Origin: Methylophaga sp.
GTDB taxonomy: Bacteria; Pseudomonadota; Gammaproteobacteria; Nitrosococcales; Methylophagaceae
NCBI GenBank assembly: GCA_002733105.1
Contig: NVUI01000007.1
Span: 51,093-91,345, forward strand
Reading direction: 5' to 3'
Length of the DNA stretch: 40,253 bases
Part shown: positions 1,735 to 13,245 of the stretch, piece by piece
Layout: each line of letters begins with the position of its first letter
Position numbering within the stretch: the stretch's first letter is position 1
The notes under the pieces: generated by a model
What the model was told of the DNA's origin: nothing
The model's input: the letters and a program-made list of their open reading frames with translations, nothing else
Databases searched by the model: none
Position numbers and translations under genes: made by a program

Positions 1735-4707
1735 TCAGACCAATCTGTAGTTATCGGGTAAGCTAAACATATCAATCGTGAAAAACTCATTCACATATAG
1801 CTTAATCGTAACGGGAGTTCCATTTCGTTTATCTTTTACGAATATTTCTTGAATTGTAAAATGTTCGTCCAACGTAATTTTATGATTACTAATAAGTTTA
1901 GGCTCAACACCTATTGCATCTGCCAGCTTTCCCACTTTAGCCATAACGTAGGTATCTTCCTTTATTTTCCACTCAATCTTATCAATCAATTCAATTGTGT
2001 TAGCTCGCCGCCTATCGTCAGGATCTTGAATTATCAACCTATCAATAACAACACGTTGCACCTCATTGGTAAATAAAAATAACTCCTTTGCTTCCTGTGT
2101 ATGTACCATCCGTAATCTATGCAATGCTTGCTCAGTTTCACCTCTACAAAAATGCTCGATCAATCCACTCATAATGGGATTGGCATAGTGAGGACGTGCT
2201 GTCTCATAATGAGGTTTGTCTTTTAAATTAAATATTTCTATATTGTTTTCAGTCACAAACTCAGAATCAAGATCATCACCAACGCGGAAACCATAATTTA
2301 ACATTCTAAACATGTTTTCAATTGCCGTATTACCAATAAAATGCCTACCAATCACATATAACTGCTCTACATCTTCAAAGCGATTTAAACCCCGTATATT
2401 GCCAAAATATCCACTTGCCACAACATTATTCAGCTTCCCTTTCAACTTACTAACAATATGACGATACGTAATAATGCCAATTTTTTTACCTTGCGAGAGC
2501 CTTGATATTTGCTTTGCTAATCGTTCAAGTTTTATGTCTGTTTCATCTTTAAAGTATGATCGGCTATAAGTTTTATACGCATATTGGGTAATCGATACTT
2601 TGCTACTTGGCTGAACATTAATCTGTTTAAAATTCTCATCAAACTTACCACCAAACACCTTACTAACCACTGCTGCATTGGCTGTAGCATCCAAGTACAT
2701 CATCGGGATATCATCAAACCTGCTCATTAATTTCTTTGGCTTGGCGACATAAAGCATGTCATTACTTACCCAAATACCATCATTTGTAATGTTTTCATCG
2801 TCATTTTGGGCATTCATTTGAAGTATCGGTTTAAATGCTGAGCAATAATTGATTCTTTCGGCAGGTATGTAATTTTTGATTATTTCATCTACATCTAGTG
2901 TGCTGTAATTTAAATTATCAAATGATGCATCATAAAGTTCTAACTGCCTCTCCTGCTCATGATAATCATCTATAAGCTGTTCTGCGTTATCATTAATAGC
3001 CTCACGCAAGGTTGTACCCATTCGCACCGTCGCCAGTATATTTTTTATACTCTCCGGCGAGCTATACATACCATAGGAGTCCGCCCCACTTTGACTAAGT
3101 ACTTGCCCAATAATATCTTCATCAACAATTAAATAATGCGTTTTATTTCGATGTTCATTCGGGCCAAAATTATCAGCATCAAATCCTCCAGCCCATAAGC
3201 TACTGTAGTTAAATAAATCATTGTGGGTAACAATTCTGATTAAAGGTGAAGCTTCAAACTGAGATACGTACTGACAGCCCACCCTTAATGGGCAATTGCA
3301 ACAAAAACGACTTATTTTCTTGTCAAATAACACCTTATCTTCTACAAGTAATGGGTGCTTACAATATGATCCTTCAGTGATTGCTACCTCACCATCAATA
3401 ATGTTCGCTTGATATCGTCCTTTGTAGTGCTGTATTAGTTTCTGGGTATTACCTTTTAACATCGCCTTTTTTTGTTTTTGCCTAAAATCTCCCCCTTCAA
3501 ACTGATACTGCTCACATAAACGGTTAAATTTATCTATATATTCCTCGGCTGTTTCGTGCGTTTTAACAAAAATGGTTACTCTTTTCCCACAACCCTTGAC
3601 GATAAATTCGTTAAACAAATACCGCTGGATAGTGTCGGTTTTACCAGCACCAGCAGTTATATTTACAAATACATCTTTTTTAGTTTCAAAAAAATCATCT
3701 ACTATTGCATTAAGTTTTTCAGTTGCATGTTCAGCAGGTATGAAATCGAACTCAAAGGTTGGCTTTAATTCAGTTATTTTCGGCTTACTATTTCGTCGTG
3801 GAGCAATGTAGCCATGCTTATGTGCAGTATAAAACAGTGATTTTATCGTGATGCCATTACTTGATGATGTTGCTTTTGTCCAATTATCTATTTGTTTGAT
3901 ATGTTTTTCTTGCGTGTTATCAGGTTTATTCCAATGTGATAGCAATAACCCTTTGACCTCTTGCTCATTAAGTACATTAAGCAATGCAAAGGTAACTTCC
4001 ATTCGCTCAGTATAGGAATAGTCTCGGGGTATATACGACAACGCTTTTTCTATGTCTTCATGATTGATTTTGTAGTTTTCAATATTACTAATCTGTTTTG
4101 CATTAACGACCTGTCTATCTTTCGTATTAAGGGCTACCTTTTTAGCAAAGAGCCAATCAGTCACTGAAACCGCCAAACAGTGCTCGTTATAATAACAAGT
4201 AGCATCAGAACCATAATAGCTACCCGCATTGATGTTTTTCATTGCCTTATCTAAGGTGATATCCAACGTGTTTTGGTATCTTTCGTGTAGATCTAAGTAA
4301 ACAAGAGCGTAGTCCTTTTTATCTTCTAGTTCGTCATCGGTATAGATGGCAAATTTTAATCCACCGCTTGGACTGTAAAAGCAAAATAATATTTCTGGTA
4401 ATACGATTAACTGCTGTCGAACAGCTTCAATATCCTTGTGTGGGTTATCTTTTTTATCTAAATCAAATAACACAACACCTGTTACCGTGTAGTTTTGAGA
4501 TAGCGCTCTAGTTTCAGAGATAATACAAGGGTTAAAAAATGGCCTGTTTTTCTTGGCTACTACCTTGTATTTTTCAGTTTTCACGTCATGTATCACATCA
4601 GACAAACTTACTGACTCAATATCATTAACCCGCCAAACATGAGGCATGCTGTAACATGTAATGGTGTGTTGTAGTGTGGTGGTTGAGGTTATTATGTGAA
4701 AATTCAT
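1735..4707 (-). CDS. AEP-type primase (BT4734/VirE-N-like) fused to an SF2, DinG/XPD-like helicase
   Basis: This 990-residue protein is probably the replication or processing enzyme of the mobile element. An N-terminal region (about 70-185) resembles the BT4734-like/VirE_N primase fold, with the acidic motif LFDLD at 80-84 and YSPSGGLKF at 111-119. Residues 215-300 look like a PriCT_2-type primase C-terminal domain. A helicase part follows: Walker A TAGAGKT (351-357), a cysteine set C449, C469, C470, C472, C478, a DinG/XPD-like RIVTHNDLFNY stretch (491-501), and Walker B LIVDED (526-531). Cysteines lying between the two Walker motifs match the iron-sulfur position of XPD/DinG helicases. The start at 4707 has AGGAG 10-14 bases upstream, inside the end of the preceding small ORF, so the two genes are likely coupled. 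Domain names rest on motif reading, not on a search. Confidence 0.7.
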   Translation of the reverse strand: MNFHIITSTTTLQHTITCYSMPHVWRVNDIESVSLSDVIHDVKTEKYKVVAKKNRPFFNPCIISETRALSQNYTVTGVVLFDLDKKDNPHKDIEAVRQQLIVLPEILFCFYSPSGGLKFAIYTDDELEDKKDYALVYLDLHERYQNTLDITLDKAMKNINAGSYYGSDATCYYNEHCLAVSVTDWLFAKKVALNTKDRQVVNAKQISNIENYKINHEDIEKALSYIPRDYSYTERMEVTFALLNVLNEQEVKGLLLSHWNKPDNTQEKHIKQIDNWTKATSSSNGITIKSLFYTAHKHGYIAPRRNSKPKITELKPTFEFDFIPAEHATEKLNAIVDDFFETKKDVFVNITAGAGKTDTIQRYLFNEFIVKGCGKRVTIFVKTHETAEEYIDKFNRLCEQYQFEGGDFRQKQKKAMLKGNTQKLIQHYKGRYQANIIDGEVAITEGSYCKHPLLVEDKVLFDKKISRFCCNCPLRVGCQYVSQFEASPLIRIVTHNDLFNYSSLWAGGFDADNFGPNEHRNKTHYLIVDEDIIGQVLSQSGADSYGMYSSPESIKNILATVRMGTTLREAINDNAEQLIDDYHEQERQLELYDASFDNLNYSTLDVDEIIKNYIPAERINYCSAFKPILQMNAQNDDENITNDGIWVSNDMLYVAKPKKLMSRFDDIPMMYLDATANAAVVSKVFGGKFDENFKQINVQPSSKVSITQYAYKTYSRSYFKDETDIKLERLAKQISRLSQGKKIGIITYRHIVSKLKGKLNNVVASGYFGNIRGLNRFEDVEQLYVIGRHFIGNTAIENMFRMLNYGFRVGDDLDSEFVTENNIEIFNLKDKPHYETARPHYANPIMSGLIEHFCRGETEQALHRLRMVHTQEAKELFLFTNEVQRVVIDRLIIQDPDDRRRANTIELIDKIEWKIKEDTYVMAKVGKLADAIGVEPKLISNHKITLDEHFTIQEIFVKDKRNGTPVTIKLYVNEFFTIDMFSLPDNYRLV

Positions 4708-4712
4708 ATCGT

Positions 4713-4994
4713 CTAAGCTCCTGTGTTACGTGAAAACTTAGTGATTGAAGACTTTACTTTTCCTTTGAGGAAATTGTCGCTGCCGGTCTTTTTTACGGAT
4801 CTGAGGCCAGCACTTTTTAAGTCAGCATAGAACTGTTCTATCAACGAGCAGGATACAAGAACGACGAGGTGGCTTTTAGTCTGGACATATTGCTTAATAT
4901 GTTGGCCTAAAGCATGGCTTTTGTTAGCACCGAAAAGTGCAGAAACGATATTTACAGTCGTATTGCTGTAATTAAAAATAGCATTAGAAGACAT
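4713..4994 (-). CDS. Small protein encoded upstream of the primase-helicase
   Basis: A 93-residue ORF with ATG at 4994 preceded by GGAG at suitable spacing. It ends 5 bases before the primase-helicase start, and its last codons contain that gene's ribosome-binding site, so the pair is almost certainly one operon. The sequence has a hydrophobic core (SHLVVLVSCSLIEQF) and a basic C-terminal tail (KKTGSDNFLKGKVKSSITK). I do not recognise the family. By position it could be a DNA-binding accessory or regulatory factor of the element's replication module, but that is inference. Confidence 0.55.
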   Translation of the reverse strand: MSSNAIFNYSNTTVNIVSALFGANKSHALGQHIKQYVQTKSHLVVLVSCSLIEQFYADLKSAGLRSVKKTGSDNFLKGKVKSSITKFSRNTGA

Positions 4995-7429: not shown

Positions 7430-7978
7430 CTATGACTCTAATAGCTGTTTCTTTTGCAGGTTAAATTCATTAAGTGTAAGAATTCCTCTATCCTTCATTG
7501 ATGCTAGTTGCTCTAGTTCATCCATAAGCTCCTTTGTTGATGTTGATGGAATATTATTTGATACAGATATTTGATTTACTTCTTGGGCTGTTGCTTTAAA
7601 TGCCTGTTTAAAATATTTGATTGGGTTATCTTTTGAGCTGAAATTGAGAACAGCGGCACATAGAAAAAAAACCATGAACACACCTGTTAAAAAACCCAAT
7701 ACACAGAAAAACCACGCCAACTTACCGAGCTTAACTGTCCCTTTTGCATTCAGTAAAAGCTGGCCATTTTGTATCCTTATTTTAGCTTCTGCCTCAACAA
7801 CACCCCACTCCCACATCCCTTTTAAACCACTACTAATCTTTACATGGTCAGAGTTGATATTAACGCTATCATCATCATAATAATTTACTAAATGAGACTG
7901 AAACATCTTCAGTATTTCTTCTTCAGTAATGGTGTTATTAGTTAATACTTCTGCTTCATGTACCTCAATAAAGGCCAT
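7430..7978 (-). CDS. Membrane protein with C-terminal SHOCT domain
   Basis: A 182-residue protein. The N-terminal half looks like a small beta-rich domain (MWEWGVVEAEAKIRIQNGQ, a pleckstrin-homology-like or DUF pattern). A hydrophobic stretch (LAWFFCVLGFLTGVFMVFFL) forms one or two membrane passes. The C-terminus ELEQLASMKDRGILTLNEF followed by KKQLLE is a standard SHOCT motif, an oligomerisation or anchoring module. The ATG at 7978 has AAGGAAG upstream. The gene diverges from the XRE regulator across a 97-base region with two palindromes, so it is a likely target of that regulator. Confidence 0.7.
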   Translation of the reverse strand: MAFIEVHEAEVLTNNTITEEEILKMFQSHLVNYYDDDSVNINSDHVKISSGLKGMWEWGVVEAEAKIRIQNGQLLLNAKGTVKLGKLAWFFCVLGFLTGVFMVFFLCAAVLNFSSKDNPIKYFKQAFKATAQEVNQISVSNNIPSTSTKELMDELEQLASMKDRGILTLNEFNLQKKQLLES

Positions 7979-9154: not shown

Positions 9155-9762
9155 ATGGGTAAAGCCGGACGACCTAAAGGAACAACTGGACAGGCACAAG
9201 TCCTCGCTGGGAACGATGTCAATGAACTATTAATTTATCTTTATCAAACCCATAAAAAAAACGGTAAGCGAAACATGGCAATAGTGATGATGAGTTTCAA
9301 ATTAGGTTTGAGGGCAAAAGAGCTGGCAGCTCTAAAAATTAAGGATGTCTACGATGGAAATAAATTAAAAAACACACTTCGATTAATCGCTGAATATACA
9401 AAAGGCAACAAACACCGAGACTTGCCATTAAACAATGAAGTACTTATCGGGATACTTGAGACCTACATCGAAACAAGAAAAGGTTAATATTCAATATAAA
9501 TGCCCCCTTGTTCAGATCACAACGAGGCAGCTATTTTTCTCCAAATGCAATGGTTCGCGTTTTAAAAAATATTTATATTAATGCTGGATTTGAAGATGCT
9601 AGCTCGCATAGTGGAAGGCGATCATTATTAACGAAGCTCGCTGATGAAGGTGTTTCAGCATTTCATATACAAGAGATTGCAGGTCACGCTAGCGTACTCA
9701 CAACTCAAAGATACATCGATCACAACCCAATTGTAATCGCTAATATTTTAAAAAATGTTTAG
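9155..9762 (+). pseudogene. Tyrosine recombinase/integrase, broken by a frameshift
   Basis: Two adjacent ORFs (9155-9487 and the frame containing 9508-9762) together form a short tyrosine recombinase of about 200 residues. The first half carries the first catalytic Arg (FKLGLRAKELAALKI) and the beta-strand Lys (YTKGNKHRDLPL). The second half carries H-x-x-R (SSHSGRRSLLT), the GH motif (IAGHASVLTTQ) and the nucleophile Tyr (QRYIDHNP). The frames join near 9478-9488 at an AAAA run, where one base change would restore reading into NINAPLFRSQRG. There is no separate N-terminal core-binding domain, but the start (GKAGRPKGTTGQ) looks natural for short recombinases of this type. RBS AGAGAGAAGG. Either inactive or read by frameshifting or a sequencing error. 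It marks the region as a mobile island. Confidence 0.85.
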
Positions 9763-9845: not shown

Positions 9846-11723
9846 TTAAATTTTTAATGTTTTATTCTGTTTGTTATAAAAGTCACCAACACACCTTGGG
9901 CCGCTATTTAAATCTTCATCTATCATGGATGTTGTGAATATAATTTGATGATCTATTTCAAGAGCATCAGATAATTTTACGACTTCACGTTGAAAAAGTT
10001 GACTTCTTTCCTCTTTCATTCCCTTATCTTCAATATTATCTATCAATAAAAACCGAGGGTACAAATAAGTTGAATCCATACAAGAAGCTTTTAACATTGC
10101 CAGTCTGAATGAGTTTTTTAGATACACCATTGAACTTGCAGAAAATAAAGCCCTTTGATCAATAGACACTCTATCATCAGCAAAATCAAACTCAATATTT
10201 CTTCCATCATTAAAAACTTCTTCATGTCCAGTATCAGCATGAACTAATTCAAGTGTAGCTTGTGATAGTTTATATTTTTTTTGTCTAATTGCACTTTCAT
10301 TTCGGGCTTCTAATCTTTTAATATCTGCATCTAGAGAAGTGACTCTGCCTTGTAAATTCTCACGCTCTTCATATAATCCATAGAGTTTTGCAAACTCTTC
10401 TTTACTTTTATTTAAAGCTGAAACCTGATTATTTAGTGAGCCAATTTCATTAAGCTTCATCCGTAATTCCAGAGTAATCTCTCGTTGCGGCTTACTCAAT
10501 ACTTCAAAGTTTCGTTCTTTCTCATCAAGTTTCGTTTCTACCTGACTTAACGCAGTTTGATACTCTTGGAGGTAACTCTGCTTATATTCGATAAGCTTTA
10601 ATGACTCAGCTATCTGAAACTCAATTTCTTTTCTCACCTTAAAGGTTGGATCAAAACCACTATCTTCAACAGTTTCGTTATTACCACATACAGAACAACC
10701 TAAATCATGTTTAATAAGCTCCTTCTGGCATGCAGGGCAATGATTAAATGCAATATCTGATAATGCATTAATCGTCTGCTTAGTTTCTTTTAAAGCTTCT
10801 ATACGAGCTTGTAATGAAGTAATAAAAAGTTGTGAATCATTAATTTCAAATGAAGTTGTAGAAATTTGATCTGATACTTGAGCTTGCAGTTTTCTATTTT
10901 CTTGCACTTCTATCGTTAGTTTTTGTAGGATAGACTGTTCACTTTCAGAACTATCTTTTCCAGTAGAGGAATCAATTTCTCTTTCTAACTTGTCTACAGA
11001 GTCTTGCCTCTCATTAATCTCTGAATCAATTTCAGCCACAGTCTTAATCGTGCCACCCAGGAAAGAATGAATGGTTTTAATTTCTTTCACTCTACTATCT
11101 AAAAGGGCTTCTAATTTTTGTAAATCTACTCGTTTTTCATAAAGTGAAAAATCTGACAACCCTATTAACAGCTCGCCTATTGCTTGTCTTTTTCGTGGAG
11201 AATCAAACTGATCAAACTTAAATAATCGATCAGGTGACGTCATCTGGTCTACATACATCATTCTCAATAATTGATGCATAGTGATACTATTTTTATCTTC
11301 CGACTTTGAATATGGAATTCCTAGTTCTCTGAAAATAACCTTATAAAAACTTTCTTTAGTATCGGCATTGTATGGATATCTTATCCAGTCTGTAATTTTC
11401 GCTTGAATTGCATCATCAAATGTACCAGAAAAAATGTCCATTCCTTTACGTCCACCTTCCTTTATCTCCCGTTTAAGAGTAAATATGTTCCCACTCAAAT
11501 TAACTTCAGTAAAAACAAAGTCACATGATTTCGCCTCTTCCTTAAATTTAGTTAAATCACCACCCAGGCCATAAAAAATAAAATCAGCTATAGTAGATTT
11601 ACCTGAGCTGTTCGAACCTCGAATAATATTGACTCCTAAGCCAAACTTTTCGTCGTATGCTGTCTTATTTCCTTTCGTTATAACTAATCGATTCACCATT
11701 AAAAAGGGTTTAAACTGGGTCAT
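9846..11723 (-). CDS. ABC-3C system ATPase: SMC/Rad50-like ABC ATPase with zinc-hook-like cysteines
   Basis: A 625-residue protein. Walker A is GSNSSGKST (36-44) near the N-terminus, and long coiled coils occupy most of the middle. A CPACQKEL...CSVCGNN four-cysteine set lies near residues 326-346 at the coil tip, like a zinc hook. The C-terminal head has a signature-like ALFSASSMVYLKNSFRLA and Walker B-like FLLIDNIED. Its start overlaps the middle-component gene by 14 bp. The ABC + middle component + effector/CTD arrangement is that of ABC-three-component conflict systems. The ATPase would be the sensor/motor that controls the membrane effector encoded upstream. It ends convergent with the recombinase. 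Confidence 0.85.
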   Translation of the reverse strand: MTQFKPFLMVNRLVITKGNKTAYDEKFGLGVNIIRGSNSSGKSTIADFIFYGLGGDLTKFKEEAKSCDFVFTEVNLSGNIFTLKREIKEGGRKGMDIFSGTFDDAIQAKITDWIRYPYNADTKESFYKVIFRELGIPYSKSEDKNSITMHQLLRMMYVDQMTSPDRLFKFDQFDSPRKRQAIGELLIGLSDFSLYEKRVDLQKLEALLDSRVKEIKTIHSFLGGTIKTVAEIDSEINERQDSVDKLEREIDSSTGKDSSESEQSILQKLTIEVQENRKLQAQVSDQISTTSFEINDSQLFITSLQARIEALKETKQTINALSDIAFNHCPACQKELIKHDLGCSVCGNNETVEDSGFDPTFKVRKEIEFQIAESLKLIEYKQSYLQEYQTALSQVETKLDEKERNFEVLSKPQREITLELRMKLNEIGSLNNQVSALNKSKEEFAKLYGLYEERENLQGRVTSLDADIKRLEARNESAIRQKKYKLSQATLELVHADTGHEEVFNDGRNIEFDFADDRVSIDQRALFSASSMVYLKNSFRLAMLKASCMDSTYLYPRFLLIDNIEDKGMKEERSQLFQREVVKLSDALEIDHQIIFTTSMIDEDLNSGPRCVGDFYNKQNKTLKI

Positions 11724-12213
11724 ATCTGTACTCCATTAAACCTGTTCTTTTTTTCAATCCTGACTCTCCCATCAGATCAACTTGATTCAAAATATCAATT
11801 AAACTACTCATGTAGCCATCAGAATATTTCTGATTATTACTTAATAAATTAGTTATTCCTTTAGCATCAAAACCTCTTGAGAGCCTTAGCTTGCCATTAA
11901 TTTCACTAAAGATATCTTTAGCAATCAGTATTTGAAGAGCTTGAATATGATAATCTCCCATTTCAGAGAATAATCGTTTTTTATCAGGTAATATTTCATA
12001 TGGTTCATGTATCTTTGCAGCTTTTTTCTTTACATCTAATACACCCTTAACTCTTGGAAAAGCGATACTTTCAACGAGATATGGAAATACAAAAAATATA
12101 TCGTAGATTCTTAAACGAACGAAATCAAACTCTTCAAGATTTTGTAACTTAGCAATTGTGATGAACCTGTACATGCAATGATATAAATCATTGCGAGGAT
12201 GATAAATAATCAC
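11710..12213 (-). CDS. ABC-3C middle component
   Basis: A 167-residue protein beginning MIIYHPRNDLYHCMYRFI, with IYDIFFVFPYLVESI and a C-terminal winged-helix-like region (HIQALQILIAKDIF onwards). This resembles the middle-component (MC) families that bridge the ATPase and the effector in ABC-three-component systems; I cannot assign the exact MC subfamily. The gene begins 3 bases after the CTD gene ends and overlaps the ATPase start by 14 bp, so the three are translationally coupled. The operonic order is strong support; the sequence resemblance is from memory. Confidence 0.7.
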   Translation of the reverse strand: MIIYHPRNDLYHCMYRFITIAKLQNLEEFDFVRLRIYDIFFVFPYLVESIAFPRVKGVLDVKKKAAKIHEPYEILPDKKRLFSEMGDYHIQALQILIAKDIFSEINGKLRLSRGFDAKGITNLLSNNQKYSDGYMSSLIDILNQVDLMGESGLKKRTGLMEYRYDPV

Positions 12214-12216
12214 CGC

Positions 12217-12855
12217 TTAATCCCATTCAATGTAACAATTACCTGTAAGCACATACAATAAACCATATAAATCCTCCTTATCTATTAGCAAGCTACATCC
12301 TTCGACACTATGTAACAGAGGTCCGATAATTTTATTTACCACCAAATCGTCTATTTCATATTCTTGGAATTCACGAGACTTTACTCGTGAGCTAATTTCA
12401 GATTGAAAGGTAACTCTGATTTGCACGAGTAAATGTGTGTAAATTTTCTGAGCAGATTCAAAGTGAGAATTTTTCATTATTTTTTTTGTTATGGACTCTT
12501 TCAGATCCATCGCCATTTCAACTAAATGAGCTCTATTTCCACTATTTAGTTTTTCATTCAAATCGCGTAGAGAACCTTCTACTTTTCTATAAAGAAAATT
12601 ATTTAACTTATCAGAAAACTCTTTATATTCATGATCTAACAGTATTTCTTTCTCATGCTCTTCAACTAGTTCTTTTAATATTGTATCTTCACGATATATC
12701 AATGGCCCATAGTTATTATTTATAGAGTTATCTATTAAATCTCGGGCTGCGACCTTATCAGCAGTTATATTCTTTTGTGTCGTCTTATTCGCGTCAAATA
12801 CCGGCACTCTGTTATCCCTTCTTATCCCGCCCAGTAACATCACCTCCAGCGACAA
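12217..12855 (-). CDS. ABC-3C C-terminal domain (effector-associated) protein, probably the 3' part of a split effector
   Basis: A 212-residue ORF, largely helical, ending LLYVLTGNCYIEWD, a tail I recognise as typical of ABC-3C effector C-terminal domains. It lacks a convincing start: the ORF-track start is a TTG, and the nearest ATG (12840) has GGAGG only 2 bases away. Its first codons overlap the preceding 63-residue ORF by 44 bp in another frame. Skipping one base near 12812-12825 would fuse TM-GGDVTGRDK to RDNRVPVFDANKTTQ and give one effector of about 255 residues with an N-terminal membrane anchor. Split effector, frameshift mutation and programmed shift are all possible. Confidence 0.75.
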   Translation of the reverse strand: MSLEVMLLGGIRRDNRVPVFDANKTTQKNITADKVAARDLIDNSINNNYGPLIYREDTILKELVEEHEKEILLDHEYKEFSDKLNNFLYRKVEGSLRDLNEKLNSGNRAHLVEMAMDLKESITKKIMKNSHFESAQKIYTHLLVQIRVTFQSEISSRVKSREFQEYEIDDLVVNKIIGPLLHSVEGCSLLIDKEDLYGLLYVLTGNCYIEWD

Positions 12856-13003: not shown

Positions 13004-13229
13004 GACAAACTACCCTCTTAATTAAAGCTACCTACTCATTCAGGGCATAATTTATAATAAACCCAAAGACTTAAGGCTAACATATCATAGAAATACAATG
13101 CAAAGATGAGTCTTTAAGTTAATCATGTGATAACTGATACACATTCCTGATACATTTGTATTATAATTAACACTTATGTGTGCTGATATAACTGCCGTAT
13201 AGCAGTGTCTTGGTTTTGGTGGTAAGTCC
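13004..13229. other. Gene-free region between the ABC-3C operon and the island end
   Basis: No credible ORF. The AT-rich stretch next to the GTG at 13003 should contain the ABC-3C promoter on the minus strand, but no clear -35/-10 pair stands out. Confidence 0.4.
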
Positions 13230-13245
13230 CTGACTCTCCGCCATT
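13230..13245 (+). other. Probable attachment site: tRNA-Ser 3'-end remnant
   Basis: The sequence GTCCCTGACTCTCCGCCA, ending at about 13243, matches the T-arm/acceptor 3' end of a tRNA-Ser, with discriminator G before CCA. A tRNA-type terminator follows 12 bases later. No matching GGAGAGT 5' acceptor strand or cloverleaf exists in the preceding 100 bases, so this is a duplicated 3' fragment, as left by integrases that use tRNA 3' ends. The complete tRNA would then lie beyond the left edge of the window. Confidence 0.5.

Follow-up and report, generated by a model that had tools for sequence, protein, structure and literature searches.

A single intact reading frame on the minus strand of the 40,253-nucleotide stretch of Methylophaga sp. 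DNA analyzed here (contig NVUI01000007.1; hereafter the window) encodes a 990-aa protein in which an AEP primase, a PriCT_2-like domain and a DinG/XPD-like helicase are fused (1735..4707, from the ORF, Pfam and homology). An earlier note on this DNA had proposed an island protein that combines a primase and an Fe–S-type XPD/DinG-like helicase in a single polypeptide. The proposal is supported by Pfam and NCBIfam matches of the primase, by profile and fold homology of the motor, by a tetrad of conserved cysteines and by a tRNA-Ser/att context, with the Fe–S cluster and the AEP fold as predicted features. Computation shows that the two halves are fused, which families they resemble, that the four cysteines are conserved and that the setting is a mobile one. 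We consider the protein to be probably the replication primase–helicase of an integrative island of ~15.4 kb, with a DinG/XPD-like motor.

The primase half

Pfam and the sequence bear out the motif order given earlier: DxD, PriCT_2-like domain, Walker A TAGAGKT, cysteine set, THNDLF and VDED. The protein had been placed at 1735-4994; the 990-aa ORF ends at 4707, and the rest of that interval holds a separate 93-aa ORF (4713-4994). All coordinates of protein features below refer to the minus strand.

The BT4734-like (VirE-N type) AEP primase domain spans aa 52-173 (4189..4554), where PF08800 matches above its gathering score (E 6.7e-9; 36.4 bits vs a cut-off of 22.4). The NCBIfam model for CRISPR-associated PrimPol type B (NF040562) also matches (E 1.4e-10), below its equivalog cut-off. 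The predicted metal-binding AEP motif I, D82-x-D84 (FDLD; 4456..4464), is invariant in an alignment with the primases of the Imhoffiella relative (L038) and of a viral contig (L085), and the stretch VVLFDLD follows the hhhDhD pattern of motif I in BT4734-like AEPs, with D82 and D84 kept in the three sequences. In the same alignment the position expected for AEP motif II (sxH) is occupied by SPSGG without a histidine (aa 112-116; 4360..4374), a candidate nucleotide-binding loop of BT4734-like AEPs in which S112, P113, S114 and G116 are invariant. D168, conserved in the three sequences, is a candidate for motif III (hD/E). A PriCT_2-like domain follows at aa 219-295 (3823..4053), where PF08707 scores below threshold (16.7 bits vs a cut-off of 22). 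The AlphaFold model of the N-terminus is of low confidence (pLDDT 42.6), and no AEP was found among the Foldseek matches of this model (best E 0.16).

The window protein has PF08800, DxD and SPSGG in common with BT4734-like/VirE-N AEPs and with DbCAPP. DbCAPP, a type B PrimPol, is an active primase–polymerase that is inactivated by D86A/D88A (PMC8211822), and D82/D84 of the window protein lie near this pair by position. DbCAPP provides an active example of a related primase domain; primase activity is predicted for the window protein. BT4734-like/VirE-N AEPs and DbCAPP occur stand-alone or fused to a VirE-type helicase (PMC8211822), whereas the motor of the window protein is DinG/XPD-like. The primase of the viral contig (L085:3956-4903) is a stand-alone BT4734-like protein of 315 aa; beside it lie genes that resemble an SNF2 helicase and a sliding clamp (both named by eye).

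The helicase motor

The motor was compared across an alignment of 37 divergent members. In motif I (Walker A, TAGAGKT, aa 351-357; 3637..3657), G355 and K356 are invariant among the 34 members with residues at these positions. The segment THNDLF (aa 494-499; 3211..3228) aligns as the equivalent of the DinG-type NHHL segment, with H495 in 32/37, and motif II (Walker B, VDED, aa 528-531; 3115..3126) retains D529-E530 throughout (37/37). Motifs II and III are 142 residues apart in the window protein and 119-257 in its relatives; the insert between them (approximately 2728..3075) is mostly helical in the AlphaFold model of the window protein and sits at the Arch position. It is followed by motif III (LDATA, aa 672-676; 2680..2694; D673 in 37/37), a family signature FGNIRGLN (aa 768-775; 2383..2406; R772 in 35/37 and G773 in 36/37) and a motif VI-like QALHRLR (aa 860-866; 2110..2130), whose Q860, R864 and R866 are present in 37/37. 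Cysteines aside, the positions kept in all 37 members are the DE of motif II, the D of motif III and the Q, R and R of motif VI.

When the 37-member profile was compared with PDB sequences, XPD ranked first (5h8w, E 3.4e-5) and DinG was among the top matches (6fwr, E 4.9e-4). A previous profile of 15 members had found XPD at E 0.04 only; thus, the XPD signal became stronger as members were added. Most of the motor is modeled with confidence by AlphaFold, and the first 15 Foldseek matches of this model are all DinG, XPD or CasDinG (E 2.6e-10 to 3e-6), with low to moderate TM-scores (0.26-0.53). The alignments used for folding contained no rows taken from plasmid records. The model phrog_2488 matches 5/37 members (window protein, E 0.0036); in control genomes it behaves as a DinG/YoaA/XPD family, matching E. 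coli, B. subtilis and archaea, and it also matches the host's own 637-aa DinG/YoaA-type helicase. For the motor of the window protein and its family, Pfam reported no DinG-type match and only weak DEAD/ResIII matches.

The window family and the DinG/YoaA and XPD helicases share a common order of motif I, four cysteines, an HH/TH segment, motif II, an insert at the Arch position, and motifs III and VI. They differ in that DinG/YoaA and XPD have DEAH in motif II whereas the window family has DE (DED in the window protein, DE plus other residues in relatives), and in motif VI, which reads Q-x3-R-x-R in the window family and Q-x3-R-x2-R in DinG/XPD. The window family also has a primase in front and sits on mobile elements. 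Because the final H of DEAH is missing from motif II and the spacing of motif VI is different, the motor is termed DinG/XPD-like and not DinG.

AEPs of the All3500 type have been reported in fusion with UL9-like SF2 helicases (PF02399, pVOG1685/9714), and a motor of this kind would lie outside the XPD/DinG side altogether. Kazlauskas et al. (2018; PMC5862659) describe AEP fusions to remote UL9-type SF2 helicases, and the 93-aa ORF upstream of the fusion gives a weak PF02399 match. We regard a UL9-like motor as very unlikely, however: the 25 families that the 37 members match at E<=1 do not include PF02399, XPD and DinG lead both the sequence and the fold searches, and XPD and Rad3 are absent from the text of Kazlauskas et al., where the motors of element AEP fusions are RepA, DnaB, MCM, D5, VirE, DUF927, DUF3987 and UL9-like (PMC5862659).

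The cysteine tetrad

Between motifs I and II of the DinG/XPD-like motor lies the arrangement C449-x19-C469-x2-C472-P-x4-C478 (3274..3363), identified from the family alignment and from hhalign as a predicted Fe–S cluster. Cysteine occupies these columns in 36/37, 37/37, 37/37 and 37/37 of the divergent members (one row has no residue for the first), and among 1531 alignment columns they are the only ones with at least 15 cysteines. The spacing across the 37 members is mostly 20, then 2-13, then 5 residues, with extremes of 15-34 for the first gap and up to 19 for the second. In an hhalign comparison with six DinG/YoaA-type proteins, all four cysteines fell on conserved cysteines of the host DinG/YoaA-type helicases (probability 94.6, E 6.4e-8). 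Of the residues assigned to the Fe–S position in the earlier note, C449, C469, C472 and C478 are thereby retained, whereas C470 is unconserved.

The tetrad probably holds a [4Fe-4S] cluster, an assignment of cluster identity that derives from the sequence. The four cysteines could instead bind zinc as a structural ribbon; a Cys-x2-Cys with a later cysteine at x5 is compatible with this, and the metal is not readable from sequence. Yet all four match cysteines conserved in DinG/YoaA-type helicases at the equal place in the motor, and XPD and DinG are the top structural matches, so that zinc binding appears decidedly unlikely.

Relatives with exchangeable primase modules

About 36 relatives of the window helicase were found on plasmids, phage contigs and chromosomes. 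As a direct tblastn query the window protein gave no match in phages and one weak match in plasmids, and single-protein pattern scans found little. Relatives were reached by tblastn chaining via a plasmid (L003) and a genome locus (L004), which led to plasmids of Rhodobacterales, Rhodospirillales and Hyphomicrobiales and to the 4170-bp pM02_c11740. The first alignment for the pattern search was too diverse, and a four-sequence alignment served instead; its profile recovered 30 loci, 23 of them on genome contigs and the other 7 on viral ones, from Thiomargarita to Elusimicrobia. Of 199 genome matches, most span motifs I-Ia only (Mfd-like) and were left out of the count. Two candidate relatives were dropped, one as Mfd (L005) and the other as a TOPRIM-KaiC-type ATPase (L024). 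Within the host's class, clear members are present in 3 of 369 genomes: that of the window, G286 and, with a more distant member, G187. At the distant locus (L057), the helicase ORF carries a similar cysteine set and is overlapped in another frame by an AEP-like DxD ORF (L057:2337-3323).

The constant part of the family is the motor. The closest relative, from Imhoffiella (L038), has a BT4734-like AEP followed by the motor, in the same order as the window protein. Toprim_3 is found in seven relatives (L007, L010, L011, L012, L028, L037 and L054) and Prim-Pol in one (L016), and others (e.g., L003, L004, L032 and L044) have N-termini with AEP-like DxD stretches and no Pfam primase match. Some relatives have no recognized primase half, and several have no long N-terminus. 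The complete circular plasmid pM02_c11740 (L011, JX202564.1; 4170 bp) has as its sole annotated gene a TOPRIM-Cys4 helicase fusion, annotated 'TraC', and its remaining ORFs are short. In four further plasmid records (one of them, from Skermanella, over 50 of 53.8 kb), no second gene is named as a replication initiator; since PLSDB annotation is incomplete, the missing second Rep is weak evidence.

Among known systems, PrimQH and All3500 also combine a primase, PriCT and a motor per chain on integrated elements (PMC5862659). A survey of polyvalent proteins describes RadC fused to DinG/RAD3-like helicases and mentions primases separately (PMC5512222), and the text of a DinG review makes no mention of primase (PMC11981726). 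In the open papers searched, no description of a primase fused to a DinG/XPD-like helicase was found. RepQ, RepY and RepW were considered as kin of the window protein and set aside as unrelated by published description.

Proposed role in element replication

Element replication is favored because of pM02_c11740, the plasmid records without another initiator and the fusion to a primase. In the proposed mechanism, after integrase-mediated excision from tRNA-Ser the protein would open the circular form of the island and provide it with primers. Primer synthesis would be the task of the BT4734-like AEP domain, assisted by the PriCT_2-like domain. The C-terminal SF2 motor, as kin of XPD/DinG, would travel 5'→3' on single-stranded DNA, i.e., the lagging-strand template, a polarity that we infer from published accounts of XPD/DinG (PMC10450177; PMC5679670). 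With the motor moving in this direction on that strand, the primase tethered to it could make successive primers behind or alongside the motor, and bulk synthesis would fall to the host polymerase III. The layout would be analogous to that of T7 gp4 or of DnaB–DnaG. T7 gp4 combines a TOPRIM primase with a RecA-type helicase that forms ring-shaped hexamers, and like the window protein it joins a primase in one chain to a motor presumed to move 5'→3'.

That the motor recurs on plasmids and phages while the primase part attached to it changes points to an uncharacterized family of element-replication proteins. Tentatively, this family may be a widespread and undescribed one of mobile elements, in which a DinG/XPD-derived Fe–S motor is combined with an exchangeable BT4734-like AEP, Prim-Pol or TOPRIM primase, could replicate plasmids as their sole large protein and is possibly sensitive, by way of its cluster, to the redox state of the cell. 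The known roles of XPD/DinG-type Fe–S helicases are in repair and transcription and in type IV CRISPR systems. If the proposal is true, a replicative role would be added for Fe–S helicases, along with a replicon type seen without a curated Rep family, and both primase–helicase coupling and redox sensitivity would become testable in a single polypeptide.

The island and its neighboring genes

The island of ~15.4 kb lies at tRNA-Ser(tga) (C15:48800-48889), 2.2 kb left of the window, and a tRNA target, an integrase and a flanking direct repeat are all present, as in tRNA-integrated islands. The distal att repeat, TCCCTGACTCTCCGCCAT (18 bp; 13227..13244, plus strand), equals the 3' end of tRNA-Ser. 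A tyrosine integrase follows the tRNA gene left of the window and is split over two frames (L022:14986-16495), and a second integrase fragment is found deeper in the island (window 9155-9487). The island may therefore be defective or a composite, or an assembly error may have produced the shift of frame in the integrase.

Directly upstream of the fusion, the 93-aa ORF (4713..4994, minus strand) resembles the N-terminal part of an SF2 helicase. Its Walker A is degenerate (GANKS), and it matches phrog_2467 over positions 7-86 of 502 (E 2.5e-5). A search for its relatives found none. The small upstream partner envisaged in the earlier note is therefore not upheld: the ORF is unconserved and appears to be a piece of a different SF2 helicase. 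This truncated fragment, the two-frame integrase and the second integrase fragment would suit a decaying remnant in which the primase–helicase no longer acts. Such decay seems unlikely, given that the 990-aa frame is intact, keeps its catalytic motifs and cysteines and is preceded by a GGAG ribosome site.

The island also carries an ABC-3C defense cluster as cargo (AAA_23-type ATPase, MC5 and CTD9; 9846..12855, minus strand) and an HTH gene. With a defense cluster in the same island, the DinG-type motor and primase might serve in fork restart or against invading DNA, on the model of CasDinG or of PIWI-RE-linked DinG-like helicases, and not in replication of the element; DinG-like proteins act in SOS repair and in CRISPR type IV (PMC11981726; PMC10450177). 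Relatives are nevertheless carried by plasmids and phage contigs, in one case by a 4.2-kb plasmid on which nothing else is annotated. None of the genes near the relatives examined is named as Cas, and the N-terminal partner is a primase wherever one was identified. A defense or repair role is thus quite unlikely, and replication of the element remains the preferred reading.

Two further genes were noted in the window. A 506-aa ORF (80-1600) between the integrase and the primase–helicase has apparent hydrophobic segments at its N-terminus and no confident Pfam match. A 182-aa protein (7430-7978) ends in a SHOCT-like stretch that scores 26.5 vs a cut-off of 27 bits.
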